Assembly (NCBI RefSeq): GCF_000002425.4
Contig: NC_037273.1
Coordinates: 13,611,207 to 13,675,206 of the forward strand
Direction of reading: 5' to 3'
Length of the DNA stretch: 64,000 bases
Source: Physcomitrium patens
Lineage: Eukaryota > Streptophyta > Bryopsida > Funariales > Funariaceae
Notes under the pieces: model-generated
Seen by the model: only the letters and a program-made list of their open reading frames with translations
Told to the model about the DNA's origin: nothing
The model's database searches: none
Part shown: positions 3,001 through 64,000 of the stretch, one piece after another
Numbering within the stretch: position 1 is the stretch's first letter
Layout of the letters: each line of letters starts with the position of its first letter
Position numbers and translations under genes: made by a program

Positions 3001-6000
3001 GCTTCAATAAAAAGTGAGCACAACAACAAACTTCAAGTCAGCCATAAATACAGCAACCATTGATGAATAAATAACCATTGGAAGGAGGACGGAGACAAAC
3101 CAACTCAAGAACAAAATGAGAGTCCTGAGAATAAAGATCTTGAGAAAGACGATGTAGAGCACGTCCCATTCGTGCATGTTGCCTCGCAAGCAATTCCTGC
3201 TCTTGGACCTTAAGATCTTGCCCGATCCCAAACTCCTCACGCCTGATGAATTCCACGACATCATTGGCTCTTTGTCTAATGTCAAAATCAGGAGCCGATT
3301 GAGTTGAGCCTGAAAGCCCTGTCACAACTGCACTTGTGCTAGCCTGGTCATTTTCAATCCTCTCTACTGTAGAATCAGTTTCCATAACATCACTTTGACT
3401 TTGCACACTAGGCAATTGCTCATGGTTTCCGGAAATTGCAGGTGACCCTTCAGCACAAATGAGTTCAGACTCATTGAAAATCTTCGTCGAAGGCCATTGC
3501 AAGGCACTTTCTTGGTTCAGTTCCTCTCCACGCATCTCGTTGCTGGATATATCTTGAACAACAGCCCCTTCAGTCATAGAAGATTTGAAGACACAGGCCT
3601 TGAAGTTATTTATCCATTCTTCGATCCCGAAAGCAACACCCAGCTTGTGAAGCAAAAATCGATGTTCATCAATTTTGCAAGATTTGAGAAGAATTGAGGC
3701 AGAATACTCTACAGCTGATGAAAAAGCCGGCAAAAGAATTTTAGCTGCAAAAAACTGAAGCTCCTGTGGTACGACACATAGGATGTCCAGTAACAGCATT
3801 GCCACCCTGCTGTAATCTTCAGAATGAACTTCACTAGCAAACGAACGAGTCAACACAGTCAAGGCTTTTGTAGCATACGTCTTGAGGAGGGCTGATGGTG
3901 CATGGTTGATACCGCCATATAATGCTACAATGGACGTAAGCTGCACAGCAGCAGACTTTGAATCTCCACTAATCAGTGATGGAAGGAAGTTATCGGCAGT
4001 AGCTGTCCCATCAATTTTAAGGATTACCCCTGCATCTGTTACCAATGTGTAGATATTACCTTTAAAGCCCTCTCTCTCTAACCAGCTCAGAAAAGGCCCT
4101 AATGTAGGAGCAAAAATGGTATCCCACTGAGACCATAGGCTGAGGTTGACAAGCATGGGGGCATTAATCAAGGCCTGCAATGCGTCAGCATTGGTTTTGG
4201 CCCCTAAGGAACCCACTCTCAAACTAGAACTCATCTCACTGCTTAAAACAGACGAGTAAGACGAAGGGCCATCCTCCACCGCAGAAACCAATGCCCCTAA
4301 ATACAAAATAGATGAGCTTGAGCATTCTGTTTTGCTACCATGATTGCACTCCCCCACCACTGATTCTAATGAGCCCCAACCTAAATCTTCGAATTTCTCG
4401 ACATTAAAGTATTTACACAGTCTAGGGTCAAGGTCGTCGGATGTGCTACCGACACTGGATGCATGAATTGCTTGAGTAATAAAGGCTTGCACTCTATGCA
4501 AGGGAACTTTGGGAACGCTGCATGAACTACACTTGGTCACTGCTTCAGTGTTCAACTCGGATGCTGCAGACATGTGCAAGAATTTTACTTAGAAAGACGT
4601 CATTTCGCTTTGACTTGGTAAATAGACAGAGGCAAACTACACGATCATTGGAAAATCTAAACTTGCGAGACTGATTCGTTTACTTGCAGACGAGGAAAAA
4701 TAAAGAACAGGCAGAAAATTAAAATAAAATAAACAAATAAGAAATCAAGGAGAAGGAAAGGAAAAGAAAAAAATACAGAAGCCTACGAGAATAAAGAGAC
4801 GAACTGGAAGCTGATAGGAGTGCACGACGGCCGATCAGAGTCTTGCACATACATGACAAACAGCTTGGACGATATATGAAAAATGCCAATAGTACCTTCT
4901 ATTTTATCCTTCACTGGTTTAGTGCCAGTTTGAACACTTGCATCGCAATCGACACTGATGGGCGCTGCAGTGGCAACAGTTTGAGCTGCGGCTTCTTCTT
5001 GTTGGTGCTCTTGCGTACTATTTTGTAACATATCACTGTTATCCCAAAGCCCCATCCTCACAGATATAACCTGCAGATCAGGAACGAGTCGATGTGCTAA
5101 GCTCCCTAATTAAGAAATGACAACACTTCTCTTCAAGACCACCAACCGTGCTAATATAGTGAAAAGAAATATCACAGAGACCATGAGACTGAAGTGATCT
5201 GAATTCATTGAACAAAATGCTCCAGATCCAGTCTGCACTGCCGCTGAATGTCATTGTAGGGACGTCCGCCTCATGGAAATCCAGAATGCATACAATTTGG
5301 ATATTGCCAAAACCCCATAAACAAAAGTGTGGAATTTAGGGGCATATATCATGCAGCATTTCAGATTTCAAGTCCTCAAATTGGAAGTTGGACGAATATA
5401 TAAGGACAAATAAAAGCACAGAGACTAGACACTTAACTCACGTTAACTAACTAACATGAATACATAGTATGAAAGGTAAAATACACAAGTTTCAAAGTCA
5501 AGGGGCAGACCGCGACGTAGAGCAAGCCAATCCCAAGCCTTGATTTCAGAAATTTGGTTAAATTCTTCTTCTTAGGAACCAAGGGAAAATCATTGTTTTG
5601 CCAGGGAGTGTCAACCAAATGCTTCATCACCTGCAGCAATACATCATTTCCCATAAATGAGTACACCAAATCTTGAAGAGTGAAGAGAAGTTTCGTGCAA
5701 GAACAACACGGACTAAATGACGGAATAGATACCTGCGAAACTGTACAATTCTTGCAAGCATCTTTCAGTATCCTCACGAAGTCCATCACCTCCGACCACG
5801 ACATTTCATTAGCATCACGGTACTTATCATCAAGCTGTGCCTTCGTCTTCGTTTTTTCCTTTGCCCGCAGCCGCTCCTCAGCAGCTGAAGGGTAGGGGCA
5901 GGTGCGCGGTCCAGTCACAGTCCCCATCCTATCCGTACAATAGGGCAGATTATTCAATGATTCTTTCGCATTATTTGCGTTCTCTAATTGCTCAAATAGT

Positions 6001-26303: not shown

Positions 26304-26861
26304 TATTAAGGACAAGAACTTTATAAAGATAAATGAATAAGTGAGACTTCTCTCAAAGAAAGATGACAAAATAGAAATAACTAAATATGTATATTAAGAA
26401 AGAAATTGGAATGGCTATGGCCAAAAGACAAGAAAACTAGAGACCCTTGAAACTAGACTAGAAGTAAGAAAAGAGTTGACAAGAGTGAAGAGGGCTTCAC
26501 TCTTGTCTCTATATATACTATCTAACTAGGGGCTATGTGGTGATGTTCTATAGTACCTCCAATATGTATTGACTTTGTAGGACACATGCCTTGACTTACA
26601 AGACAAGTTTTTTTACATGTGGACCACATAGTTAGCTTGGTCTTCAAGCTAACAACATGTGTGGCACATGGCCAACTTTTTGACCTCGTTTCAAATCCAA
26701 AAAGTCAATTAAAGACACCTATAAAGTCAAAGCAGTGTCTATGAAGCATCTAGGAAGCTTGTATAGCAAATATTATAGAATAAACTTATTTTTACCTACT
26801 TTTACTTAGTTCTATCTATTTATATATATAATTACTAGCTTACATGTGTATATCCATGACA
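26304..26861 (-). repeat. RLG-1 3' LTR
   Basis: This is the same 558-bp unit. The inverted repeat at 26478-26507 is perfect (13-bp arms, loop AGGG). The purine tract AGAAGAGAGGGTAT (sense) abuts it at 26862-26875. Confidence 0.9.
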
Positions 26862-26924
26862 ATACCCTCTCTTCTAGGGGCGAGTTCCACGAAGAGCAGT
26901 CATCATATGTTAAAGAAATTTGTG

Positions 26925-27075
26925 ATGTGATGAATTAAATTTGCCACATATTATGATCTTTGTTCTCTTCAAAGATGATTGATAGAGCTCTCAACCATTG
27001 ATAGTGTCCCATATCAGAGCAGAAAGACCACCGAGTTATTTGATCGTTGTTGAGGCCTTCATAACTTCTTTCAAA
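26925..27075 (-). pseudogene. RLG-1 remnant of the extra 3' ORF
   Basis: On the minus strand this translates to a stretch with MGHYQWL preceded by a Trp-Ser and an Asn-Asp. It lines up with WSEVEGMGHYRWF in the RLG-2b extra ORF. It sits at the same place, between the chromodomain and the purine tract. Confidence 0.55.
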
Positions 27076-27429
27076 TAAAATATTTGGAACACTGTCAGGA
27101 GTTGTTCCTACTTATAATAAAATCACCAAACATTGGGAGTCCCTTCCAAGGTTGTGATACCAAATGCGTTATATCTCGCCATATATTTGAGGAAGAATAT
27201 GTTGTTCTTGAAGATCTTCATCTCGATTGCATTGTCTTGAAGGTTGTGACATTAGTAATGTCTCATCCGGTAGGTCAACAAATGAAGGCTCTTCAGTCAA
27301 ATCTGCTAGTTTTTGGTTCTATATCTTCTCAGCATCACAACTACAAAGAAGATGCAAACAAAGATTGAAAGTAGAATATTATCTTGCTTAGATCTTGTTT
27401 CTTTTATAATAAAGGTTTTCATCTTGATT

Positions 27430-27965
27430 TTGATGGATGTCGTTGATGAAAAGCCTCCACCGCCTTTATTGTATTTGTAAGATTCTTTACTGACTCCCAT
27501 GTGCTTTCACTAATATCATATCCGTGCCAATGAATAAGATATTCTAATTTATTTCAAGATTGCCTTGAATCTAAGACTTCTTCCACTTTGAACTCTTCAT
27601 TATTATCCACTTCTATAGGAGGAGGTGGAGCTTGTCTTCTTCTTGGTATGTCCACTGTCTTGTATGATTCAAGAAGAGACACGTGGAATATTGGATGGAT
27701 TTTCATTGACTCTAGTAGGTGTAAACAATATGCAACTAGATTGATTTGTACAAAAATAAAAAAAATAGTCTAAGCCTTCAATAGTCCAATTTGTCACAAG
27801 GACAAGTAGTCTTGATATTGTAATGAAGTAACCATACTTTGTAATCCATGTGGAATGATGGTTGTTTCTTTTGATAGACATCCGCATTGACCTTTTGTTG
27901 TTCTTGAGCTTCTTTTAATTGTGCCTTCATCATTGTTTGTAGCTCTAACAAATGAATTACCAAAT
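27430..27965 (-). pseudogene. RLG-1 integrase tail and chromodomain remnant
   Basis: Bases 27778-27963 match the integrase C-terminal region. Bases ~27430-27600 translate to a chromodomain with VLDSR, LEYLIHWHGYD and TWE, closely like the RLG-2b one, with an internal stop. Chromodomains steer integration to marked chromatin in chromoviruses. Confidence 0.8.
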
Positions 27966-28047
27966 CTTTTGCTGCAGGATTATCAACTTTTGAAAAGTCA
28001 AAAGTATCAAGTCTTGGATGATAACCATAATTGGCAAAGAAAGGTGT

Positions 28048-30180
28048 TTATTTTGTAGAAGAATGTACCATGTTATTATAAGCAAACTTTTTCAATGGCA
28101 AAAGAGTTGTCCAATCATCTTGTTGGTAATTGATGGTACATCTTAAATAGTGCTCCAAAAGTTGATTAACTTGCTCTGTTTGTCTATTAGTTTGAGGATG
28201 GAATGCCAAAGATAGTTTTAAATTCACTTTTAGATTTAGAAATGTGCCATCTTGGTAAAACAATCTATTATCATGAATATAGAGTCATAAAAAATCTGAG
28301 ATTGGAAGATCCGTGATGAAATGCATAGAAATAGAAGACCATGGTTGTTCTAAAATGGATAATGGTTGAAAAAGTCCATAAGGTCGATAAGAAGGAGTTT
28401 TTGATCTTAAGCAAACATCATAAGATTGTACAAAAACTTTAACTGCTTTCCACATTTGTGGCCATCAAAAGTCCCTAGATATTAGTTCCAAAGTTTTATT
28501 ATATCTAAAATATCATGCTACTAAAAAATCATGACGAGCCTGAAGAATACGTAATTGAGCTTCACCTTTTGGATCATATATGTATCCCTTGAAATATAAT
28601 AGATTGTTCTTGAATTCAAATTTAGAAGTATCATGATACTTTGAAGGATTTTTCTTAATATCACAAATAAGAGGATCAAAAGACATACTTGATTGAACTT
28701 GTTTAATGAAAGTTGAATCAACTTTTAGTGTTGATTTCATTGCTTGAAGATAAAGATGCTTTAGCTTGAAGAGAATTGTCCGTTGTTGATTGAAATCAAC
28801 ATCCCCTTTTTTTGGTGCAAGATAAGATCGTCTAGAGAGTGCATCTATCAAAGCTTCGTGTTTTCATAGTTGATAAGTGATCTTGAATTTGAATCTTGAC
28901 AAAGACATATTCTAACGGGCTTGGCGACAATTTAAAACATGTGCTGACATAAAATATTCAAGATTCTTGTGATCCATATACACGATGAGTGGGCTAGAAG
29001 CACCTTCTCGATAATGGTGCTATTCTTGAAACAAATCCACAATAGCAAGAAGTTCTTTGTCATGGATCTCATAATTGTTCTCGGTTGCTAAAAATTTTCT
29101 GGAATAAAAAGCTATTGCATGAAGTTTATCACATGTTCCCATTTGTGACAATACGACACTCAAAGCAAAGTTTGATGCATCTGTTTCCATAAAAAATGGC
29201 TTATAAAAATCAACACGATACAAGATTGGTGCAAAAACAAATACCTTCTTTAAAGCTTCAAATGCTACTACCGCTTCTTGATTCTATTGAAGTTTGTCTT
29301 TACAAGTCAAATGTATAAGTGGAGCTGCAACTTGAGAGAAGTCTTTGATGAAGATCCGATAGTAGTTGACAAATTTCAAAAAGCATTGGACATCGCTTAC
29401 CATTTTTGCAATCTTCCAATCTATAATAATTTGAACTTTTTTAGGATCTATCATAAGACTATCATTGGAAATGATGTATTGTTAGAAGTTAACATGAGTA
29501 GTGTAAAATACACACTTTTCTATCTTGGCATAGAATCCCGCAAATCTTAGTTTTTGTAACACATAACAAACATGAAGTTCATGTTCTTCTAAGTTTTTAG
29601 AATAGATTAAGATATCATCTAGGCAACAAATAACAAAATCATCTAAAAACTCTCGAAAAACATCATTCATTAGATGTTGGAATGCTGCTGGTATATTTGT
29701 AAGTCCAAAAGACATGTCTTTGTATTCGAAATATCTATACCTTGTTTGAAACATAGTCTTTCATTCATATCTTTTTTTGATGCGTACCAGATTTTATACT
29801 CCTCGTAGATCTATTTTTATGTAGATCTTAGCTTGATTCAACTAATCAAAGAGTCCAAATATCAAAAGTAGCGGGTACTTGTTATTGATGGTGACTTTGT
29901 TGAGTCCTTGATAATCGACACACATCTGCAATGATCCATCTTTTTTCTTCACAAATAAAATTAGAGCTCATGTTGGAGATTTGAAATGGCGTATGAAGTT
30001 CTTGGCCAGATTTTCTTCAATATACTCCTTGAATTCAGCTAACTTATTTTGTGATAAACTGTAGATTGGTCCAAATGGCGGTTGTGCTCCTTCTTGAAGG
30101 TTAACTGAGAAGTCATAGGAATGATGTTTTGGAAGAGTATCCACATTCTTCTTCTCAAATACTTCTTAAAAATCTTGATA
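28048..30180 (-). pseudogene. RLG-1 pol remnant: RT, RNase H, integrase
   Basis: The RT piece at 29482-29754 keeps the YRYFEYKDMSFGLTN and CCLDDILIYSK regions; the usual YLDD reads CLDD. The RNase H piece at 29020-29223 has METDASNFAL. The integrase pieces at 28513-28851 (zinc-binding end) and 28048-28263 (HPQTNRQTEQVN region with the last catalytic Glu area) follow. Stops and frameshifts separate them. Confidence 0.85.
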
Positions 30181-31343
30181 TTAGCTTAGAATGCCACTTG
30201 AAGTCTTTCCACTAGTAGAAACAAGTGTGGCATAAATGACACAAGGTGATCTTTCTTTTGCAACATATAAGAAAGCTCTTGAACTTACAAATACATGTTT
30301 AATTGTACTAGACTTATGTCTTTCTACTTGATTAAATATGCTCTTAGTTATACTTTCAGAAAATTTAAGAGTACAAGAAGTCCAATCTATTTTAGGGTTA
30401 TATTTTTTTAGCCATGATAAATCTAAAATGAATGGATTAGAGGGAGATCTAATGATATTAAATATTACAAAGCTACTATGACCATTAGTTGCTACTTTTA
30501 TAGAAAGAGTTTCATGAGTAACATCTCCTGAAGACAACGGACGACTGTCTATGACTTCTATATGAACAGGTTTAGTTTTCTTCATTAAAAGTATGCTATG
30601 TCTTTTAGCAAATTCTTTATAAGTATTTTCTTGCTCAGTAAGAGGTTTGAAATATACCACATTAATTTACATATCCTCTACTTCCAAATGTATGTGTTGA
30701 ATAGATGTTGGTATTGCCATTGAATTATAGTAATATTGAGGTTCACTTGTACGGTTCTCAAATCAAAATTCAAAAAGATGATTATTGCACTTCACAGCAA
30801 AGTCAATTACTTGATTCAATGTTTGAGGATCAGGTAAGTTGAGCATTAATTTTTTACCTCATATTGTAATCCATAGAAAAATTGGCTAACAAGTGCAGTA
30901 TTATCCTACTTGATATCAGTTGCAAGTTGTCAAAATTGTCAAGCATACAATATTACTGATCAATTACCTTGTCGTAAAATACAAATCTTGTTGGTTGCAA
31001 CACAAATTGCATCATGTTTTCCATATATGGATTGAAACTCCTATAAAAAAGCATTCAAATTATCTAATATTAGATCTTGTCATTCAAAAAAAGATGGAAA
31101 CGATGATAATATTGAACCTGAAAGAAGCGTACCAATGAATCTAACTTACAATCTTAGAGTTAGATAGCTTTGGGATTGAAGTTCAATCACAAGTTGTACT
31201 TGATTGATAAATCCTCTAAACTTTGATCTGGTGCCATCAAACTTCTCAGGTAGGATAATTTTAGATTCTCTAACACTAGAAGGACGTTCCACCATAGAAG
31301 AAGAGATATGATTTGGTCCAGATATTGAAGTAGCTCTTAACAT
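30181..31343 (-). pseudogene. RLG-1 gag-protease remnant
   Basis: Open pieces at 31146-31343 (gag N-terminal, with LPEKFDGTRSKFRGF) and 30181-30660 (protease-linker region) match the RLG-2 gag and protease line by line, with stops between. The retroviral-type protease lies between them on the way to RT. It is not functional. Confidence 0.75.
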
Positions 31344-31568
31344 TTATATATCATCACTTCATGCTAATCTTGTTGCTCCTTGTGGTGGTAAATTGAGTTG
31401 ATGCATCACAAGCATTAACTCTCTCAATTGCTCTTGCATTTGTGCCATTGCACTCTTCATTTGAGTAAGTTCTGCCATGATAACATTTTAAAAAAAAAGA
31501 TGTCTAATATTGCTCAAGACAAATAGAAGTGAGGACTTAAGAATAAAGAAAATACTAAGGAAAATATC

Positions 31569-31640
31569 AATTAGAAGAAGGTAATCTGTAACTTCTAATT
31601 CGTTTATGTCTTATCAAGAAAAAGGAGTAATCCACTCTTA
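31569..31640 (-). other. RLG-1 leader hairpins with GATTACC-type loop
   Basis: A perfect 9-bp stem (AATTAGAAG at 31569-31577 with CTTCTAATT at 31592-31600) closes a 14-nt loop containing GGTAATCT. A second, weaker hairpin around GAG-TAATCCA-CTC lies at 31623-31639. Confidence 0.65.
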
Positions 31641-31675
31641 ATGAAGATTAGATAAAGCTCTGATATTGTAAGTGT

Positions 31676-31687
31676 ACTCTTGTCAAT
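31676..31687 (-). promoter_or_regulatory. RLG-1 putative self-primer binding site
   Basis: One base inside the 5' LTR the sense strand reads ATTGACAAGAGT. Its first-strand partner would be ACTCTTGTCAAT, found in the LTR 31 nt past the TATA box (exact over 11 nt in the 3' LTR at 26476-26486, one mismatch in the 5' LTR at 31860-31871). No TGG-led tRNA site is at the LTR border. Confidence 0.7.
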
Positions 31688-31688
31688 C

Positions 31689-32246
31689 TATCAAGCACAA
31701 GAACTTGATAAAGACAAATAAACAAGTGAGACTTCTCTCAAAGAAAGATGACAAAATAGAAATAACTCAATATGTATATTAAGAAAGAAACTGGAATGGC
31801 TATTGCAAAAAGACAAGAAAACTAGAGACCCTTAAAACTAGACTAGAAGCAAGAAAGGAATTGATAAGAGTGAAGAGGGCTTCACTCTTGTCTCTATATA
31901 TACTATCTAATTAGGGGCTACGTGGCAATGTTCTATAGGACCTTCAATATGTATTGACTTTGTAGGACACATGCCTTGACTTACAAGGCAAGTTTTTCTA
32001 CATGTGGGCCACATAGTTAGCTTGGTCTTCAAACTAACAACATGTGTGGCACATGGCCAACTTGTTGACCTTGTTTTGAATCCAAAAAGTCAATTAAAGA
32101 CATCTATGAAATCAAAGCAGTGTCTATGAAGCATCTAAAAAGCTTGTATAACAAATATTATAGAATTAACTTACTTTTACCTACTTTTACTTACTTCTAT
32201 CTATTTATACATGTAATTACTGGCTTACATGCGTATATCCATGACA
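31689..32246 (-). repeat. RLG-1 5' LTR
   Basis: The sense strand starts TGTCAT and ends CTTGATA, giving unusual TG...TA ends. The TATA box is at 31895-31902. A 13-bp inverted repeat with a 4-nt loop spans 31863-31892, with one wobble position on the sense strand. Confidence 0.9.
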
Positions 32247-48801: not shown

Positions 48802-49092
48802 TGTTAGGGACATAATCCTTAGAACCTTCTAGAGACAAGTTTCTAGAACCTTCTAGAAGCAAGTGTTTGGAACCTTCTAGAAGCTTCCTAGTTGGTAGAA
48901 GTTGCTTGAGAAGCTTCTTAAATAGGAGTATATATTGGCATCGAGGCTGAAGAGTTCTTCAGTCTCGACAACACATCTCTTGGAGCTCTAGCTCACCTCT
49001 CTGGTGTTGTTCTCATCTGATTGATGTAGTTCTTGCCAGTTCTTCTTGAACTTCTTGTTAGATCTCGAGTCTGTATTTCTGTGTCCGTGACA
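48802..49092 (+). repeat. RLG-2a 5' LTR
   Basis: 291 bp, TGTTAGGG...GTGACA. U3 has GAA/TTC heat-shock arrays (48825-48890), then TATATATT at 48929-48936, then a 13-bp inverted repeat at 48941-48968. The shorter U3 reflects fewer GAA/TTC units than in RLG-2b. Confidence 0.9.
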
Positions 49093-49184
49093 GTTTGTTA
49101 AGACTTCACTCACCTCAGATATCAGAGCTAGTTTCTTCTTTGTTAGATTGTGGATTATCTCTCTGCTTGGAAGTGTACTAGCAT

Positions 49185-57324: not shown

Positions 57325-57654
57325 GAGAATTGGTCTACAAAAAAATTCAAACAAATAAGAAAAAAAACATATGGATTTTTGCTTCGAGATGGATTCTTAT
57401 GGAAGAGACCGAAGAAAGGAATTGGGATGCCACAACGAATGATAGGCAAAAAGGAAGAAAAACTAAAATTATTAAAGGAGTTTCATGATAGTTTATGGGC
57501 AGGGCATAGAGGAATCTGGGCTACTTTTGCTAAACTCAAGGAACGATATTGGTAGAAAAATATGTATCGAGATGTGCTCTCATTTGTAGAGTCATGTGAA
57601 ATCTGTCAATCATATTCTAATATTCGACATCGAGATAGTCTTCATCCTACGTAT
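57325..57654 (+). pseudogene. RLG-3 integrase, first part
   Basis: After a TAG at 57322 the frame continues with a zinc-binding region: HDSLWAGHRGIWATFAKLKERY, a TAG at 57553, then CEICQSY. It is cut at 57654 by RLG-2b and goes on in frame at 63753. Confidence 0.8.
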
Positions 57655-58084
57655 TGTCACGGACACAAAATATCGACTTGAAATCTAAGAAGAAGTTCAA
57701 GAAGAAGTGGCAGAACTAGATTAAACAGATGAGTACAAGAACAACACCAGAAAGGTGAGCAAGAACTCCAAGAGATGTGTTGTCGAGACTGAAGAACTCT
57801 TCAACCTTGATCCCTATATATACTCCTACTTAAGAAGCTTCTCGAGCTACTTCTATTAACTAGGAAGCTTCTAGAAAGTTCTAGAGGCTTCCTTTCTAGA
57901 AACTTCTAGAAACTTCTAGAAACTTCTCTTCTAGAAGGTTCCAGAGACTTCCTTTCCAGAAGCTTCTAGAAACTTCTCTCTAAAAGGTTCCAAAGGCTTC
58001 TCTTCTAGAAGGTTCCAGAGGCTTGTTTTCTAGAAGGTTCTAGAAACTTCTCTCTAGAAAGTTCTAAGGAATATGTCCCTAACA
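57655..58084 (-). repeat. RLG-2b 3' LTR
   Basis: 430 bp, 60 longer than its partner because of extra GAA/TTC units in U3. TATA at 57815-57822. Purine tract TAAAGGAGGGGGTGA (sense) abuts it at 58085-58099. Confidence 0.95.
57832..58068 (-). promoter_or_regulatory. heat-shock-element array in RLG-2b 3' LTR
   Basis: Alternating GAA/TTC units spaced by 2 nt, the heat-shock factor site. The longest run is 57894-57926 with seven perfect units. Five-unit runs are at 57953-57976 and 58029-58050, and a four-unit run is at 57864-57881. Confidence 0.85.
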
Positions 58085-58601: not shown

Positions 58602-58829
58602 TCATCGAATTGATTTAGATTTATCAGGATGTCGTTGATGAAACTCCTGTACCTTTTGTGGCGCATTCGTAAGATTTTCAGCTGGCTCCCACGTTCGCTC
58701 ATTAATGTCATAGCCGCACCAATGAACAAGATATTCTAACTTTCTCCACCTTCGCCGTGAATCCAATACCTTTTCAACCTCGTATTCTTCGTGATTCTCG
58801 ATTTCAATACTAGGTGGCGGACATTGCAC
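58602..58829 (-). pseudogene. RLG-2b chromodomain (end of pol)
   Basis: [20 protein letters not shown], then [19 protein letters not shown] is a chromodomain with its aromatic positions. In chromoviruses it tethers integrase to histone marks such as methylated H3K9. It is cut from the rest of pol by the TAA near 58850. Confidence 0.9.
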
Positions 58830-58850
58830 TCTTTCAGGAAAAGATGACTC

Positions 58851-59459
58851 TTAATAAGGTTCCAATAGAGAAACATGAAAGACTGGATGTACCTTCATAG
58901 AAACCGGTAACTCCAGCCGGTATGCCACTGGATTAATTTGCTTCTGGATGATAAATGGTCCCAATCTTCGATAGTCCAACTTATCACATGGTCGCTTGGT
59001 CTTGATATTTCGTCGAAGAAGCCAGGCTTTGTCTCCAACTTTGAAAGTAGGTCCTTGATTCCGAAATCTATCTGCAGACGTCTTATAGGATTCTTGAGCG
59101 GATTGTAATTGAAGCTTCAACATAGTTTGAAACTCTGATAGTTGCTTTGCAAATCCTTCAGCTGCTGGATTGTTATTTGTTGACGGACTCAATAAATCAA
59201 GCTTTGGATGATACCCATAGTTGGAAAAGAATGGTGTTTGTTGAGTCGACGCATGGAGGGTGTTGTTATATGCAAACTCGACTAACGGTAGATATGCAGT
59301 CCAATAGTCTTGCTGATAGTTGATGCTACATCGTAAGTACTACTCCAAGACTTGGTTCACCCGTTCCGTTTGGCCATCAGTTTGAGGATGAAAAGCTGAA
59401 GAAAGCTTGATATCCACCTTCAATATCCCAAAGAGAGATCTCTAAAACTTTGACACGAA
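58851..59459 (-). pseudogene. RLG-2b integrase C-terminal part
   Basis: Between the TAG at 59460 and a TAA near 58850. Includes AFHPQTDGQTERVNQ with the third catalytic Glu, then LPLVEFAYNN and a GPF-type module (RRLGPFIIQKQ) and FHVSLLEPY. Further TAG codons at about 59340 and 59440 sit where Gln and Trp are expected. Confidence 0.88.
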
Positions 59460-61835
59460 CTAGGTACCTCGATCTGATATGATATCATTTGGTAGTCCAT
59501 GATATCGATACACATTATCGAGAAAGAGTCTTGCTGTGACTTCACTAGACGATGTCTTCTTACAAGGAACAAAGTGTGCCATCTTCGTAAGCCGATCTAC
59601 AACGACAAAGATGCTGTCAAATGAGTTTGATGATGGCAAGTCCGTGATGAAGTCCATAGAAATTGAAGACCATGGTCGACGTAGAATTGGCAATGGCTGT
59701 AGAAGTCCATAAGGGTGATGCCGAGGATTCTTGGATCTTGAACAGATGTCATAAGAGAGGATAAAATCTTTCACATCCTTCCACATTTGGGGCCACCAAA
59801 AATCTTGGGAAATAAGCTCCAAGGTCTTGTTGAATCCAAAATGTCCCGCAGCTGGAAAATCATGGCGACATTGAAGAACTCGGAGTCGTGCTGGTCCTTT
59901 TGGATTGTACAATCGCTCTTCAAAGTATAAAAGATCTCCCTCCACCTTGAACTTATCGTCATTGGTACGTTGTTTGATATCAATAGCTACTGAATCTTTA
60001 ATGGTCATAGCACGTACTTGGTTTAGGAAGTCAGCATCAAATGATACAATAGTAGTACAAAGTTGAAATCTCTCTAGCTTCAATAACGTTGTACATTGTT
60101 GATCAAACGCTGCTTCTCCAACCTTTGGTGTAAGATACGATCTCCTTGATAAAGCATCGGATAGTCCTTGCTGCCTTCCAGATCGATAAGTGATAACAAA
60201 ATCGAATCTAGATAGCGACATATTCCATCGAGCTTGATGCCAATTTAAAACTCGAGCCGACATGAAATACTCCAAATTCTTGTGATCCGTATATACGGTT
60301 ACTGGATGTGCAGCTCCTTCAAGAAAGTGACGCCATTCTTCGAAAGAATCCACTATACCAAGAAGTTCCTTATCGTGGATCTCATAATTGATTTCAGCAG
60401 CAAAGAACTTCCGAGAATAGAATGCAACTGGATGGAGCTTCTTGTCTTCACTCATTTGTGAAAGTACAGCTCTCAAAGCAAAATCTGAAGCATCAGTTTC
60501 TAAATAGAAGGCCTTTGTAAAGTCTGGATGTACTAAAATTGGAGCTGTAGTAAATGCTGTCTTCAAGTCTTGAAACGCCTTCTCCGCCAAAGGTCCCCAT
60601 TCCAACTTATCCTTGCATGTTAATCGAGTGAGAGGAGCAGCAACTTGAGAATAATTCTTGATGAAGATTCGATAGAAGTTAGCAAAACCAAGAAAGCATT
60701 GTATGTCTCTAACCATCTTCGGAACCTCCCAAGACATGATTGCTTCTACTTTCTTGGGGTGCATCTTCAAACCTTTTGTAGTTGCAATGAACCCCAAAAA
60801 CTCCATCTCCGTCTGGTGAAATAAACACTTTTCTAATTTGGCATATAGTCCTTGCTTGCGAAGTTTCTCCAAGACCAAACGAACATGCTTCTCATGCTCT
60901 TCCTCGTTTTTAGAGAATATTAGAATATCGTCCAAGTAGATGACAACAAAATCATCGAGGTATTCTCGAAAGATGTCATTCATCATATGTTGAAAAACCG
61001 CTGGAGCATTGGTAAGACCAAAAGGCATGACATTATACTCGAAATGACCATACCTTGTACGGAATGCTGTCTTCCACTCATCTCCTTCTTTGATTCGTAC
61101 GAGATTATAAGCTCCTCTTAGATCAATTTTTGTAAAGATCTTCGCATGTCCAAGTTGTTCTAAGAGACTAGAAATCAAGGATAATGGATAACGATTTTTC
61201 TTTGTTACCTTTTTGAGGCCTCGATAGTCCACACACATCCATAATGATCCATCTTTCTTCTTCACAAATAAGATGGGTGCTCCAACTGATGATTTTGAAT
61301 GACGAATGAAGTTCTTGGCTAGATTCTCGTCGATATACTTTCGCAACTCTGCCAACTCCGTTTGGGATAGATTGTAGATTGGGCCAAAAGGTGGTTGTGC
61401 TCCTTCTTGCAAGTCTATGGCACAATCATATGGTCGGTGTTCCGGTAGTATGTCGGCGTTCTTCTTTTGAAATATGTCTTCAAAATCTTTATATTGCTCC
61501 GGTATACTTGCTGTTGAGATCTTCTCCTCGGTAGTTGGAGCTGCATAAATGACAAATGAAGTGCCTTCCTTAGATGATCTTATAAACGCTCTTGCTCCAA
61601 TGAATAAGGATTTCTTTTTTCGAGGTTTTTTACTAGGTTTTTTCTTGGGTGGTTTTGTGGAAAAAGTCATCTTTTGCAACCTCCAATCTATCGATGGATT
61701 ATGTTTTTCCAACCAAGAAAGACCAAGAATAATAGGATTTGATGGGGTTCTAATAATATTAAAAATAATATGACTACTATGCTCTTTAAACGTTACTTCT
61801 ATAGGTTTTGATTCATCGGTGATGCTACCAAACAA
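59460..61835 (-). pseudogene. RLG-2b pol: protease end, RT, RNase H, integrase core (791 codons)
   Basis: [47 protein letters not shown] (YLDD intact). RNase [46 protein letters not shown]. Integrase: zinc region HDFPAAGHFGFNKTLELI...CSRSK, then catalytic MDFITDL and IISDRGT. It stops at TAG 59460, where a Gln codon is expected, before the third catalytic residue. Reverse transcriptase and RNase H look competent, but no functional polyprotein can be made because of flanking stops. Confidence 0.93.
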
Positions 61836-61841
61836 TAAAGG

Positions 61842-62077: not shown

Positions 62078-63103
62078 CTACTGTGGCTGGGCATCCTCGT
62101 TTTCCTGAACAAATACTCCTCTAGTCTTGACTATGCTTCGATTTTGCTTTTTGGGGCAGTTTCCGACTTTGTGGCCTTCTCCATCGCAATACAAGCATAA
62201 ATTTTCCTCCATACGTCGCTTTTTTTCTTCTATAGTAAGAGATTTGACACGTACCGCATCAATTTGCATGTCTTCCACCTCTGAATGCGAATTCACACTG
62301 CTTGCCGACATAGTTGGAGCATGGCGAATTGTATGTTGTCTTGAGCGTTGATCTTGGCGACGTTGGAATAGGCGATTATCGCACTTTACAGCTTGGCTAA
62401 TGACATCATTGAGCGTTCGTGGATCAGGAAGAGTTAACAACAAATCCTTCACATCATCTCTTAAACCCCAATAGAATTGACTCATCAACGCTTCTTCATC
62501 CCAATTGATGTCGCATACTAATTGCCTAAAATCTGAAGCATAGACTGATATAGAATGCATCCCCTGTCGTAGCGACTGGATCTTTGTTGTAGCCCATCGA
62601 ACCTTATCGTGTTCACCAAATGCTTCTTCAAATGCTTCCAAAAAGGTTTCGAAGTTGTTTAATATGGATGATCGTTTCTCAAACAAAGGAGCAAACCATG
62701 ATAGAGCTTGTCCCGTAAGTAAGGTTCCAACAAGTCCAACACGTGACTCCTCCGTTGGATATCGTTCGGGCTGTAAAACTGTTATCAACCTGATTTGATT
62801 GAGGAATCCTCGAAACTTGGAACGTGTTCCATCAAACTTATCTAGAAGGCTAACTCGAGGCTCTTTATGTTGTAGAACTAGTGGTTCTTGTCGAACTTGA
62901 GATAAAATTGTTTCTCCAAGTGCAGAAGTTTGAGGCTGGTGTAGTTTAGATTGTGCTATCCCAGATACTCCATCATTATGAAGCCTTGCCACCACTGCTT
63001 CAATCTCTGCAGTTCTTTGTGATAACGTAGCGAGGGCATTCATAATAGCATCTAACTTAGACTCTGAACTTTCTGTCATACTAATGTCTTGACCTCCGAC
63101 CAT
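62078..63103 (-). CDS. RLG-2b gag (341 codons, open)
   Basis: Starts MVGGQDISMTESSESKLDAI. A helical N-terminus is followed by a retrotransposon gag (capsid-like) region (FDGTRSKFRGFLNQIRL, GQALSWFAPLFE, SVYASDFRQL) and a zinc knuckle CLYCDGEGHKVGNC (C-x2-C-x4-H-x4-C) near residue 305. It would form particles and package element RNA. It is the only fully open long gag in the window. It ends at a TAG that RLG-2a shares. Confidence 0.9.
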   Translation of the reverse strand: MVGGQDISMTESSESKLDAIMNALATLSQRTAEIEAVVARLHNDGVSGIAQSKLHQPQTSALGETILSQVRQEPLVLQHKEPRVSLLDKFDGTRSKFRGFLNQIRLITVLQPERYPTEESRVGLVGTLLTGQALSWFAPLFEKRSSILNNFETFLEAFEEAFGEHDKVRWATTKIQSLRQGMHSISVYASDFRQLVCDINWDEEALMSQFYWGLRDDVKDLLLTLPDPRTLNDVISQAVKCDNRLFQRRQDQRSRQHTIRHAPTMSASSVNSHSEVEDMQIDAVRVKSLTIEEKKRRMEENLCLYCDGEGHKVGNCPKKQNRSIVKTRGVFVQENEDAQPQ

Positions 63104-63146
63104 TCTAAAAGAAGGACAAAAATGACTCTACAAGAGGCAATATTGG

Positions 63147-63334: not shown

Positions 63335-63368
63335 AAGAAAGAACTAGCTCTGATATCTCAAGTTAGTG

Positions 63369-63380
63369 CAGTCTCGACAA
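63369..63380 (-). promoter_or_regulatory. RLG-2b putative self-primer binding site
   Basis: Two bases after the 5' LTR the sense strand reads TTGTCGAGACTG. Its exact complement CAGTCTCGACAA lies in both LTRs (63508-63519, 57780-57791), beginning 31-32 nt past the TATA box, near where the RNA should start. Confidence 0.75.
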
Positions 63381-63382
63381 AC

Positions 63383-63752
63383 TGTCACGGACACAAAATA
63401 CAGACTTGAAATCTAACAAGAAGTTCAAGAAGAAGTGGCAGAACTAGATTAAACAGATGAGTACAAGAACAACACTAGAAAGGTGAGCTAGAACTCCAAG
63501 AGATGTATTGTCGAGACTGAAGAACTCTTCAGCCTCGATCCCTATATATACTCCTACTTAGGAAGCTTCTCGAGCTACTTCTATTAACTAGGAAGCTTCT
63601 AAAAAGTTCCAGAGGCTTCCTTTCTAGAAGCTTCTAGAAACTTCTCTCTAAAAGGTTCTAGAGGCTTCTCTTCTAAAAGGTTCGAGAGGCTTGTTTTCTA
63701 GAACCTTCTAGAAACTTCTCTCTAGAAAGTTCTAAGGAATATGTCCCTAACA
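63383..63752 (-). repeat. RLG-2b 5' LTR
   Basis: 370 bp. Sense order: TGTTAGGGAC, heat-shock array (63738-63552), TATATATA (63550-63543), inverted repeat 63538-63511, R and U5, ending GTGACA. Confidence 0.95.
63552..63738 (-). promoter_or_regulatory. heat-shock-element array in RLG-2b 5' LTR (promoter copy)
   Basis: Same pattern, with shorter total length. Runs such as TTCTAGAAGCTTCTAGAAAC lie just upstream of the TATA box, as expected for a heat-responsive promoter. Confidence 0.8.
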
Positions 63753-64000
63753 CGTATCCTCTGGCTATTCATTTTAAATGGGTTGTTGATTTGGTTATTA
63801 TGCCAGTTGGGTTATGGCAGATGAGATATTTGGTTTTAGCTCGTGAAGATTTATCAAATCAAGTAGAAGGAAGAGCATTGAGGACAAAATCTACAGAGGG
63901 GATTTGTAGATTTTTGCTTGAAGATGTCATTTGCCGCTACGGATGCGTAGGAAAAATCACTGCAGATCGTGGAGAATTAAATGCACAAGAAGCTCGTAAG
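63753..64000 (+). pseudogene. RLG-3 integrase, second part
   Basis: Continues the frame of 57325-57654 after the target duplication. KWVVDLVIMPVGLWQMRYLV covers the first catalytic Asp, and KITADRGELNAQEA the second. Runs off the window edge. Confidence 0.85.

Follow-up and report, generated by a model that had tools for sequence, protein, structure and literature searches.

Probable priming of reverse transcription by the element's own RNA in chromodomain Ty3/gypsy elements of Physcomitrium patens

How does a plant Ty3/gypsy element start reverse transcription when the edge of its 5' LTR fits none of the tRNA primers sampled? The question is raised by an element, here called RLG-2, in the window (the whole stretch of 64,000 nucleotides analysed). 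The first-pass annotation had claimed that RLG-2 primes itself in the manner of Tf1 and its sushi-like relatives, and that the usual tRNA primer is not used. We find both claims well supported, the former by the match at most sampled borders (31 of 41), its recurrence at 1490 genomic places, a compensated second family and the spacing from the TATA box, the latter by the poor fit of every sampled tRNA to the LTR edge. We put the probability at about 0.86 that the RNA of RLG-2, a chromodomain Ty3/gypsy element, serves as primer for its own reverse transcription, and that a second family, RLG-B, is primed likewise through another 11-nt pair. RLG-2 and RLG-B are labels of this window and are not equated with the published families RLG1 and RLG2.

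The RLG-2 element and its putative primer

The features of RLG-2, in the direction of its transcription, are as follows.

63753..63757, no strand: target site duplication CGTAT, 5' side of RLG-2
63383..63752, minus strand: 5' LTR (TG...CA), with a U3 rich in heat-shock elements
63543..63550, minus strand: TATA box TATATATA, whose first T (63550) lies 32 nt before R position 1
63508..63518, minus strand: R start, the putative self-primer copy, sense AGTCTCGACAA
63381..63382, minus strand: 2-nt spacer GT from the 5' LTR end to the primer-binding site (PBS)
63370..63380, minus strand: putative self-PBS, sense TTGTCGAGACT; the 12th base of the first-pass annotation is 63369
63347..63355, minus strand: TATCAGAGC, core of a tRNA-iMet PBS without TGG and candidate half of a U5-leader stem
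62078..63127, minus strand: gag frame (Retrotrans_gag, Ty3_capsid)
59460..61841, minus strand: pol frame with RT, RNase H and the start of integrase
58851..59339, minus strand: C-terminal piece of integrase (SH3_Tf2-1)
58602..58850, minus strand: chromodomain with three aromatic residues (Y, W, Y) taken to form its cage
57655..58084, minus strand: 3' LTR
57650..57654, no strand: target site duplication CGTAT, 3' side of RLG-2

The 5-bp target duplication CGTAT flanks RLG-2 at both ends, and its LTRs are identical at 353 of 370 aligned bases. Read in sense, with dashes at the boundaries, the 5' LTR border is ...GTCCGTGACA-GT-TTGTCGAGACT-G... and the stretch inside the LTR is TATATATA...TTC-AGTCTCGACAA. 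The primer site had been placed two bases inside the 5' LTR, and its exact complement in the LTR with the A 32 nt downstream of the T that opens the TATA box. It turned out that both placements are right: the PBS starts two bases (GT) past the LTR end, CAGTCTCGACAA (plus strand) occupies 63369-63380, and its complement TTGTCGAGACTG occupies 63508-63519. Compared with the next 20 nt, the LTR matches over at most 12 nt, a length that 0 of 2000 dinucleotide shuffles attained.

To this we added a sample of 43 distinct borders, 42 of the RLG-2 type (RLG-2a, described below, included) and one of RLG-B, and R was located in 41 of the 43. The exact 11-nt match between R and PBS is present in most of them (31 of 41), and the spacer is GT or AT in all 42 RLG-2-type borders, with a length of 2 nt throughout. 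The base after the 11-nt PBS is A in 31 of the 43 borders (G in 9, T in 2, C in 1), while the LTR base preceding R is C in 40 of 41. Since the 12th PBS base is mostly A but C precedes R, the RNA most likely begins with A and primes with nucleotides 1-11. Judged from the letters of these borders, the RNA of RLG-2 would thus most likely start at the A of R, and the working match would be 11 nt. The match of 12 nt first described holds for the letters of RLG-2, but its last base is unmatched in most of the copies sampled; a 12-nt primer is ruled out by the A at this position (31 of 43 borders here and 18 of 20 in RLG-B) together with the C before R. Over the whole genome, the exact R and exact PBS of RLG-2 stand 110-140 nt apart at 1490 places, and the backwards control gave 0. 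A TATA-anchored scan of 319,834 bases was not selective and was kept out of the evidence (91 inverted matches, 64 of them the RLG-2 R; 188 in the direct-repeat control).

A further copy in the window, RLG-2a, carries the following pair.

48960..48971, plus strand: R copy of RLG-2a (the 12-mer of the first-pass annotation)
49095..49105, plus strand: decayed self-PBS of RLG-2a, TTGTTAAGACT

As had been noted, RLG-2a keeps the same R copy next to a decayed 12-nt site, TTGTTAAGACTT at 49095-49106, with three changes, two of which fall inside the working 11 nt. Its longest match between LTR and border is 6 nt, not significant by dinucleotide shuffles.

In the proposed mechanism, the first base of the RNA would be the A of TTC-AGTCTCGACAA, some 32 nt past the TATA box. 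Nucleotides 1-11 of the RNA are complementary to the PBS, which starts two bases past the 5' LTR, and would fold back onto it. The RNA would then be cut after nucleotide 11, as in Tf1, and its 3' end extended into minus-strand strong-stop DNA. The 2-nt spacer may supply the two extra terminal bases usually trimmed by integrase. RLG-B would take the same route with its own 11-nt R/PBS pair.

Besides, perfect three-unit heat-shock elements overlap one another in the LTRs of this family: the RLG-2 5' LTR has 6, the 3' LTR 15 and RLG-2a 4, where shuffling gives a mean of 0.003-0.0075 (2000 shuffles). Both RLG-B LTRs have 0 elements of that kind. Induction by heat and ABA is reported for a P. patens family named RLG2 (PMC7466625, in the part available).

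A second family with another R/PBS pair

RLG-B lies elsewhere in the window, with these features.

31689..32246, minus strand: RLG-B 5' LTR, with target site duplication GTTTC
31861-31871, minus strand: R copy in the 5' LTR, ACTCTTATCAA (one change)
31676..31686, minus strand: putative self-PBS, sense TTGACAAGAGT
26476..26486, minus strand: R start in the 3' LTR, sense ACTCTTGTCAA
26304..26861, minus strand: RLG-B 3' LTR

The element spans 26304-32246, and its PBS of 11 nt follows the 5' LTR after a 2-nt spacer. Against the 3' LTR this PBS has an 11-nt match, reached in 8 of 2000 dinucleotide shuffles; its own 5' LTR offers no match longer than 8 nt, owing to the one change in R. For the relatives of RLG-B we took 20 of the 39 other places listed, one of which (L114) is rearranged. 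The match is exact in 7 of these 20 borders, the 12th base is A in 18 and C precedes R in 19. Genome-wide, exact RLG-B R and PBS stand 160-190 nt apart at 3416 places, with 0 in the control; such places are more numerous for RLG-B (3416) than for RLG-2 (1490).

The R sequences of RLG-2 and RLG-B differ at positions 2, 6 and 8, and the PBSs differ at exactly the complementary sites, while the leaders past the PBS can still be aligned (ACACTAACTTGAGATATCAGAGCT and ACACTTACAATATCAGAGCT). In both families R begins 31-32 nt after the TATA box and the match stops at the same A. These compensated differences, which form a single comparison between two families, are the strongest sign that the pairing matters.

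The LTRs of the RLG-B copy in the window end in TA, not CA (26304 and 31689), and of the 20 sampled relatives 13 have the CA end and 6 have GATA before the spacer. Among the RLG-B pieces searched, only SH3_Tf2-1 was found and no chromodomain. A search for a third R/PBS family, from which the known bases were excluded, returned mainly decayed or variant RLG-2 and RLG-B sites among the matches listed (6 of 6, 100 of 133 and 100 of 522).

The first-pass annotation had proposed aligning the genomic borders to see if site and R change together. They do so between the families, whereas inside RLG-B they do not. We read seven RLG-B copies whose PBS is a variant; five have the usual R and two an R changed elsewhere: the PBSs TTGGCAAGAGT (L124-L127, 4 of 5 such places) and TTGTCAAGAGT (L128) stand with the usual R, and TTGTCAAGAGT (L129) and TTGACAAAACT (L123) with an R altered at other positions. 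As none of these single PBS changes is answered in step by R (0 of 7), the variants look like decay, and new copies seem to start matched and to decay later. A weak linkage exists at R position 2 and PBS position 10. C with G occurs at 3416 places and T with G at 191 (191 of 3607), and A at PBS position 10 occurs at 440 places, with T at R position 2 in 16 of the first 100 listed (counted by eye; one place appears twice among the 16, once per strand). The odds ratio is about 3.4 (16 of 100 listed vs 191 of 3607), but older copies change at both sites and shared age alone can give such a value, so the linkage was not counted as support.

Two single copies deserve description. In L124 (G000:C1:12012495-12012730) the same A-to-G change is seen in the U3 arm of the hairpin described below (GGCAAGAG) and in the PBS (TTGGCAAGAGT), with R unchanged; the arm is usual in three other copies bearing TTGGCAAGAGT. 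The border of L122 (C3:4667000-4667225) reads GACA GT TTGTCAAGACTGAAGAACTC, and 18 of 20 positions in its PBS are complementary to GAGTTCTTCAGTCTCAACAA in the LTR of L122, a pairing that extends 9 nt past the usual R start (by eye). At best, this extended PBS may record one event, in which the primer of an RNA started upstream was copied into a new PBS. The same border is found nearby at G000:C3:4678821, the match being shown for the L122 LTR alone.

tRNA primers, the U3/R hairpin and common descent as alternatives

We consider it very improbable that a tRNA primes instead, be it tRNA-iMet at TATCAGAGC, which stands 23-27 nt in from the LTR edge, or some other tRNA at the edge itself. TATCAGAGC is the exact complement of the 9 nt preceding the CCA of iMet, and it lies just past the self-PBS in the leaders of RLG-2, RLG-2a and RLG-B and in 40 of 43 sampled borders, which speaks for iMet. 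But it stands 27 nt inside the LTR edge in RLG-2 and 23 nt in RLG-B, away from the edge where the DNA end must form, and TGG is absent from it in RLG-2, RLG-2a and RLG-B, so that the tRNA 3' end would stay unpaired. Nor is TGGTATCAGAGC, the mark of tRNA-iMet-primed plant chromoviruses, found directly after the 5' LTR in any of the three.

For the edge itself, we compared a sample of 66 tRNA predictions in 50 loci, which gave 45 distinct ends for 16 amino acids (Cys, Phe, Pro and Trp are missing from it); iMet, whose sequence occurs at 12 genome places, was added separately. With these 45 ends and iMet, no run from a tRNA's own 3' end exceeded 3 nt for RLG-2 and RLG-2a at 0-7 nt from the LTR, and none exceeded 4 nt for RLG-B over the same distance with one base trimmed. 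A better-matching tRNA 3' end, which would have spoken against self-priming, was thus not found in this set, and the edge fits none of its members.

A complete site does occur in one copy, L121 (G000:C1:1609800-1610300), and it counts in favour of tRNA priming. L121 has an RLG-2-type LTR end and a normal self-PBS, and the divergent leader behind them, which shares about 82% identity with RLG-2 leaders, contains the complete tRNA-iMet PBS TGGTATCAGAGC. These 12 nt include the CCA complement and lie about 23 nt past the LTR end. The ATATTTTCA-C ahead of TGGTATCAGAGC resembles another LTR end with its spacer. The TATCAGAGC block might also pair with AGTTCT in U5, as CTAGTTCTG:CAGAGCTAG in RLG-2 and AAGTTCT:AGAGCTT in RLG-B, and it is compatible both with a structural role and with a relic.

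Another explanation starts from the LTR, where R proved to be part of an inverted repeat in both families.

63511..63538, minus strand: RLG-2 U3/R inverted repeat TCGAGGCTGAAG-AGTT-CTTCAGTCTCGA, a 12-bp hairpin with one G.U pair
26478..26507, minus strand: RLG-B U3/R hairpin GACAAGAGTGAAG-CCCT-CTTCACTCTTGTC, 13 bp

R is the 3' arm and the 5' arm lies in U3, with 12 pairs in RLG-2 and 13 in RLG-B. The 91-nt fold around the hairpin has a z of -1.98 in RLG-2 (7 of 200 shuffles as good) and of -4.78 in the RLG-B 3' LTR (0 of 200). As the longest inverted repeat of its LTR, the hairpin was reached in 6 of 400 shuffles for RLG-2a and 3 of 400 for the RLG-B 3' LTR; in both RLG-2 LTRs the longest inverted repeat is another one, built of heat-shock elements. 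The decayed RLG-B 5' LTR keeps 10 hairpin pairs (reached in 85 of 400 shuffles), and all 13 pairs are present in 10 of the 20 RLG-B borders. In an RNA begun at the A, the U3 arm is absent from the 5' end and present at the 3' end, so the hairpin could form only in the 3' copy of R. We infer that it may mask that copy; the plain alternative is a role in the promoter.

The R/PBS complementarity might then have arisen as a by-product, from a palindromic promoter element where the RNA starts, and play no part in priming. As R is one arm of a near-perfect LTR inverted repeat in both families, most of its complement exists in U3 anyway. However, the PBS copy lies outside the LTR, at its very edge and behind a constant 2-nt spacer (42 of 42 RLG-2-type borders). 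It also includes R positions 9-11, missing from the RLG-2 palindrome, and for the majority of the borders sampled its match is to R 1-11 and not to the palindrome's GAAG part. We regard the by-product as having only a slim chance of being right, and self-priming remains the preferred reading.

Further pairings of the leader are less distinct. The best leader/LTR duplexes were equalled in 49 of 300 shuffles for RLG-2, 12 of 300 for RLG-2a and 77 of 300 for RLG-B, and the fold of the RLG-2 5' leader does not stand out from those of shuffles (z -0.79; 46 of 200). A GT-rich 14-nt pairing between leader and U5 was set aside for its 8 G.U pairs.

Lastly, a chance similarity kept only through descent of all copies from one founder is hardly credible: copies within a family are related rather than independent, and R does not track PBS changes inside RLG-B, but it is opposed by the shuffles (0 of 2000 for RLG-2) and by RLG-B, whose R and PBS differ from those of RLG-2 at three compensated sites in a leader that can still be aligned.

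Within self-priming, a joint reading can be proposed, which we put forward as a speculation more probably wrong than right: the leaders would record a switch of primer, the self-PBS would be rewritten in each cycle, and the U3/R hairpin would hide the 3' copy of R. The self-PBS would then have come to lie between the LTR and an older tRNA-iMet PBS, of which the TATCAGAGC core survives in RLG-2, RLG-2a and RLG-B and the whole TGGTATCAGAGC is seen in L121. A retained primer would rewrite the self-PBS, so that R and PBS of new copies stay matched, and the extended PBS of L122 and its neighbour would be a trace of such rewriting from an upstream RNA start; with the 3' copy hidden only the true 5' end could prime.

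Relation to known and predicted self-priming elements

Self-priming in moss elements is not a new idea, since the general claim is in print as a prediction (PMC6317226, in the part available). As far as our literature searches show, what is new is the definition of the 11 nt, the compensated second family, the genome-wide counts, the hairpin and the iMet-like neighbour. In the available text of the literature on Tcn1 self-priming, supplementary files aside, we found no site sequence, match length, RNA start or U3/R hairpin for moss elements. The result offers a concrete and testable self-primer in what appears to be a model moss, in which the sequence marks where the primer begins, at the RNA start, and where it ends, after 11 nt. 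With thousands of copies and two primer/PBS pairs, cross-priming and the upkeep of R and PBS become testable. The iMet-like core bears on the origin of self-priming in moss Tcn1 elements, which may be ancestral, horizontal or gained from a tRNA-primed element.

Aligned to CDYL chromodomains, the RLG-2 chromodomain shows the Y, W and Y of the methyl-lysine cage. By these residues, together with its gag, RT, RNase H and integrase pieces, RLG-2 is classed as a chromovirus of the CHD_I type, and by these features it fits the Tcn1 clade of Tf1/sushi elements. The aromatic cage positions are named in PMC3350952, which lists for the CHD_I type in plants the Tcn1-like elements of non-seed plants and, in addition, reports the type from green algae and two Galadriel elements of Selaginella. 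The cage is not unique to Tcn1, being reported also for some of the Chlamyvir and Galadriel clades (PMC6317226). RLG-2 resembles the Tcn1 clade of mosses and club-mosses in its caged chromodomain, its non-seed plant host and the lack of a tRNA PBS at the edge. According to the available sections of PMC6317226, the majority of plant Tcn1-clade chromoviruses have no tRNA PBS and are predicted to self-prime; for SM-Tcn1 of Selaginella, PMC2864245, likewise available in part, gives neither tRNA priming nor self-priming as found. Self-priming is also predicted for Ty1/copia elements of the TAR lineage in plants, such as Houba and Osr-1 (PMC6317226). These are copia elements; in RLG-2, by contrast, integrase follows RT and RNase H, as in gypsy elements, and a chromodomain is present.

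Tf1 of Schizosaccharomyces pombe uses a primer of about 11 nt. Its RNA 5' end is complementary to a PBS beside the 5' LTR (PMC4600332, PMC10085805), and, in the available part of the account of the mechanism, that PBS is flanked by further 'pretzel' duplexes, three in all (PMC10085805). For RLG-2, RLG-2a and RLG-B the corresponding stems are candidates, which shuffles often equal. RLG-2 resembles Tf1 in that its RNA start, as suggested by the TATA box and the extent of the match, is complementary to a PBS at the LTR edge.
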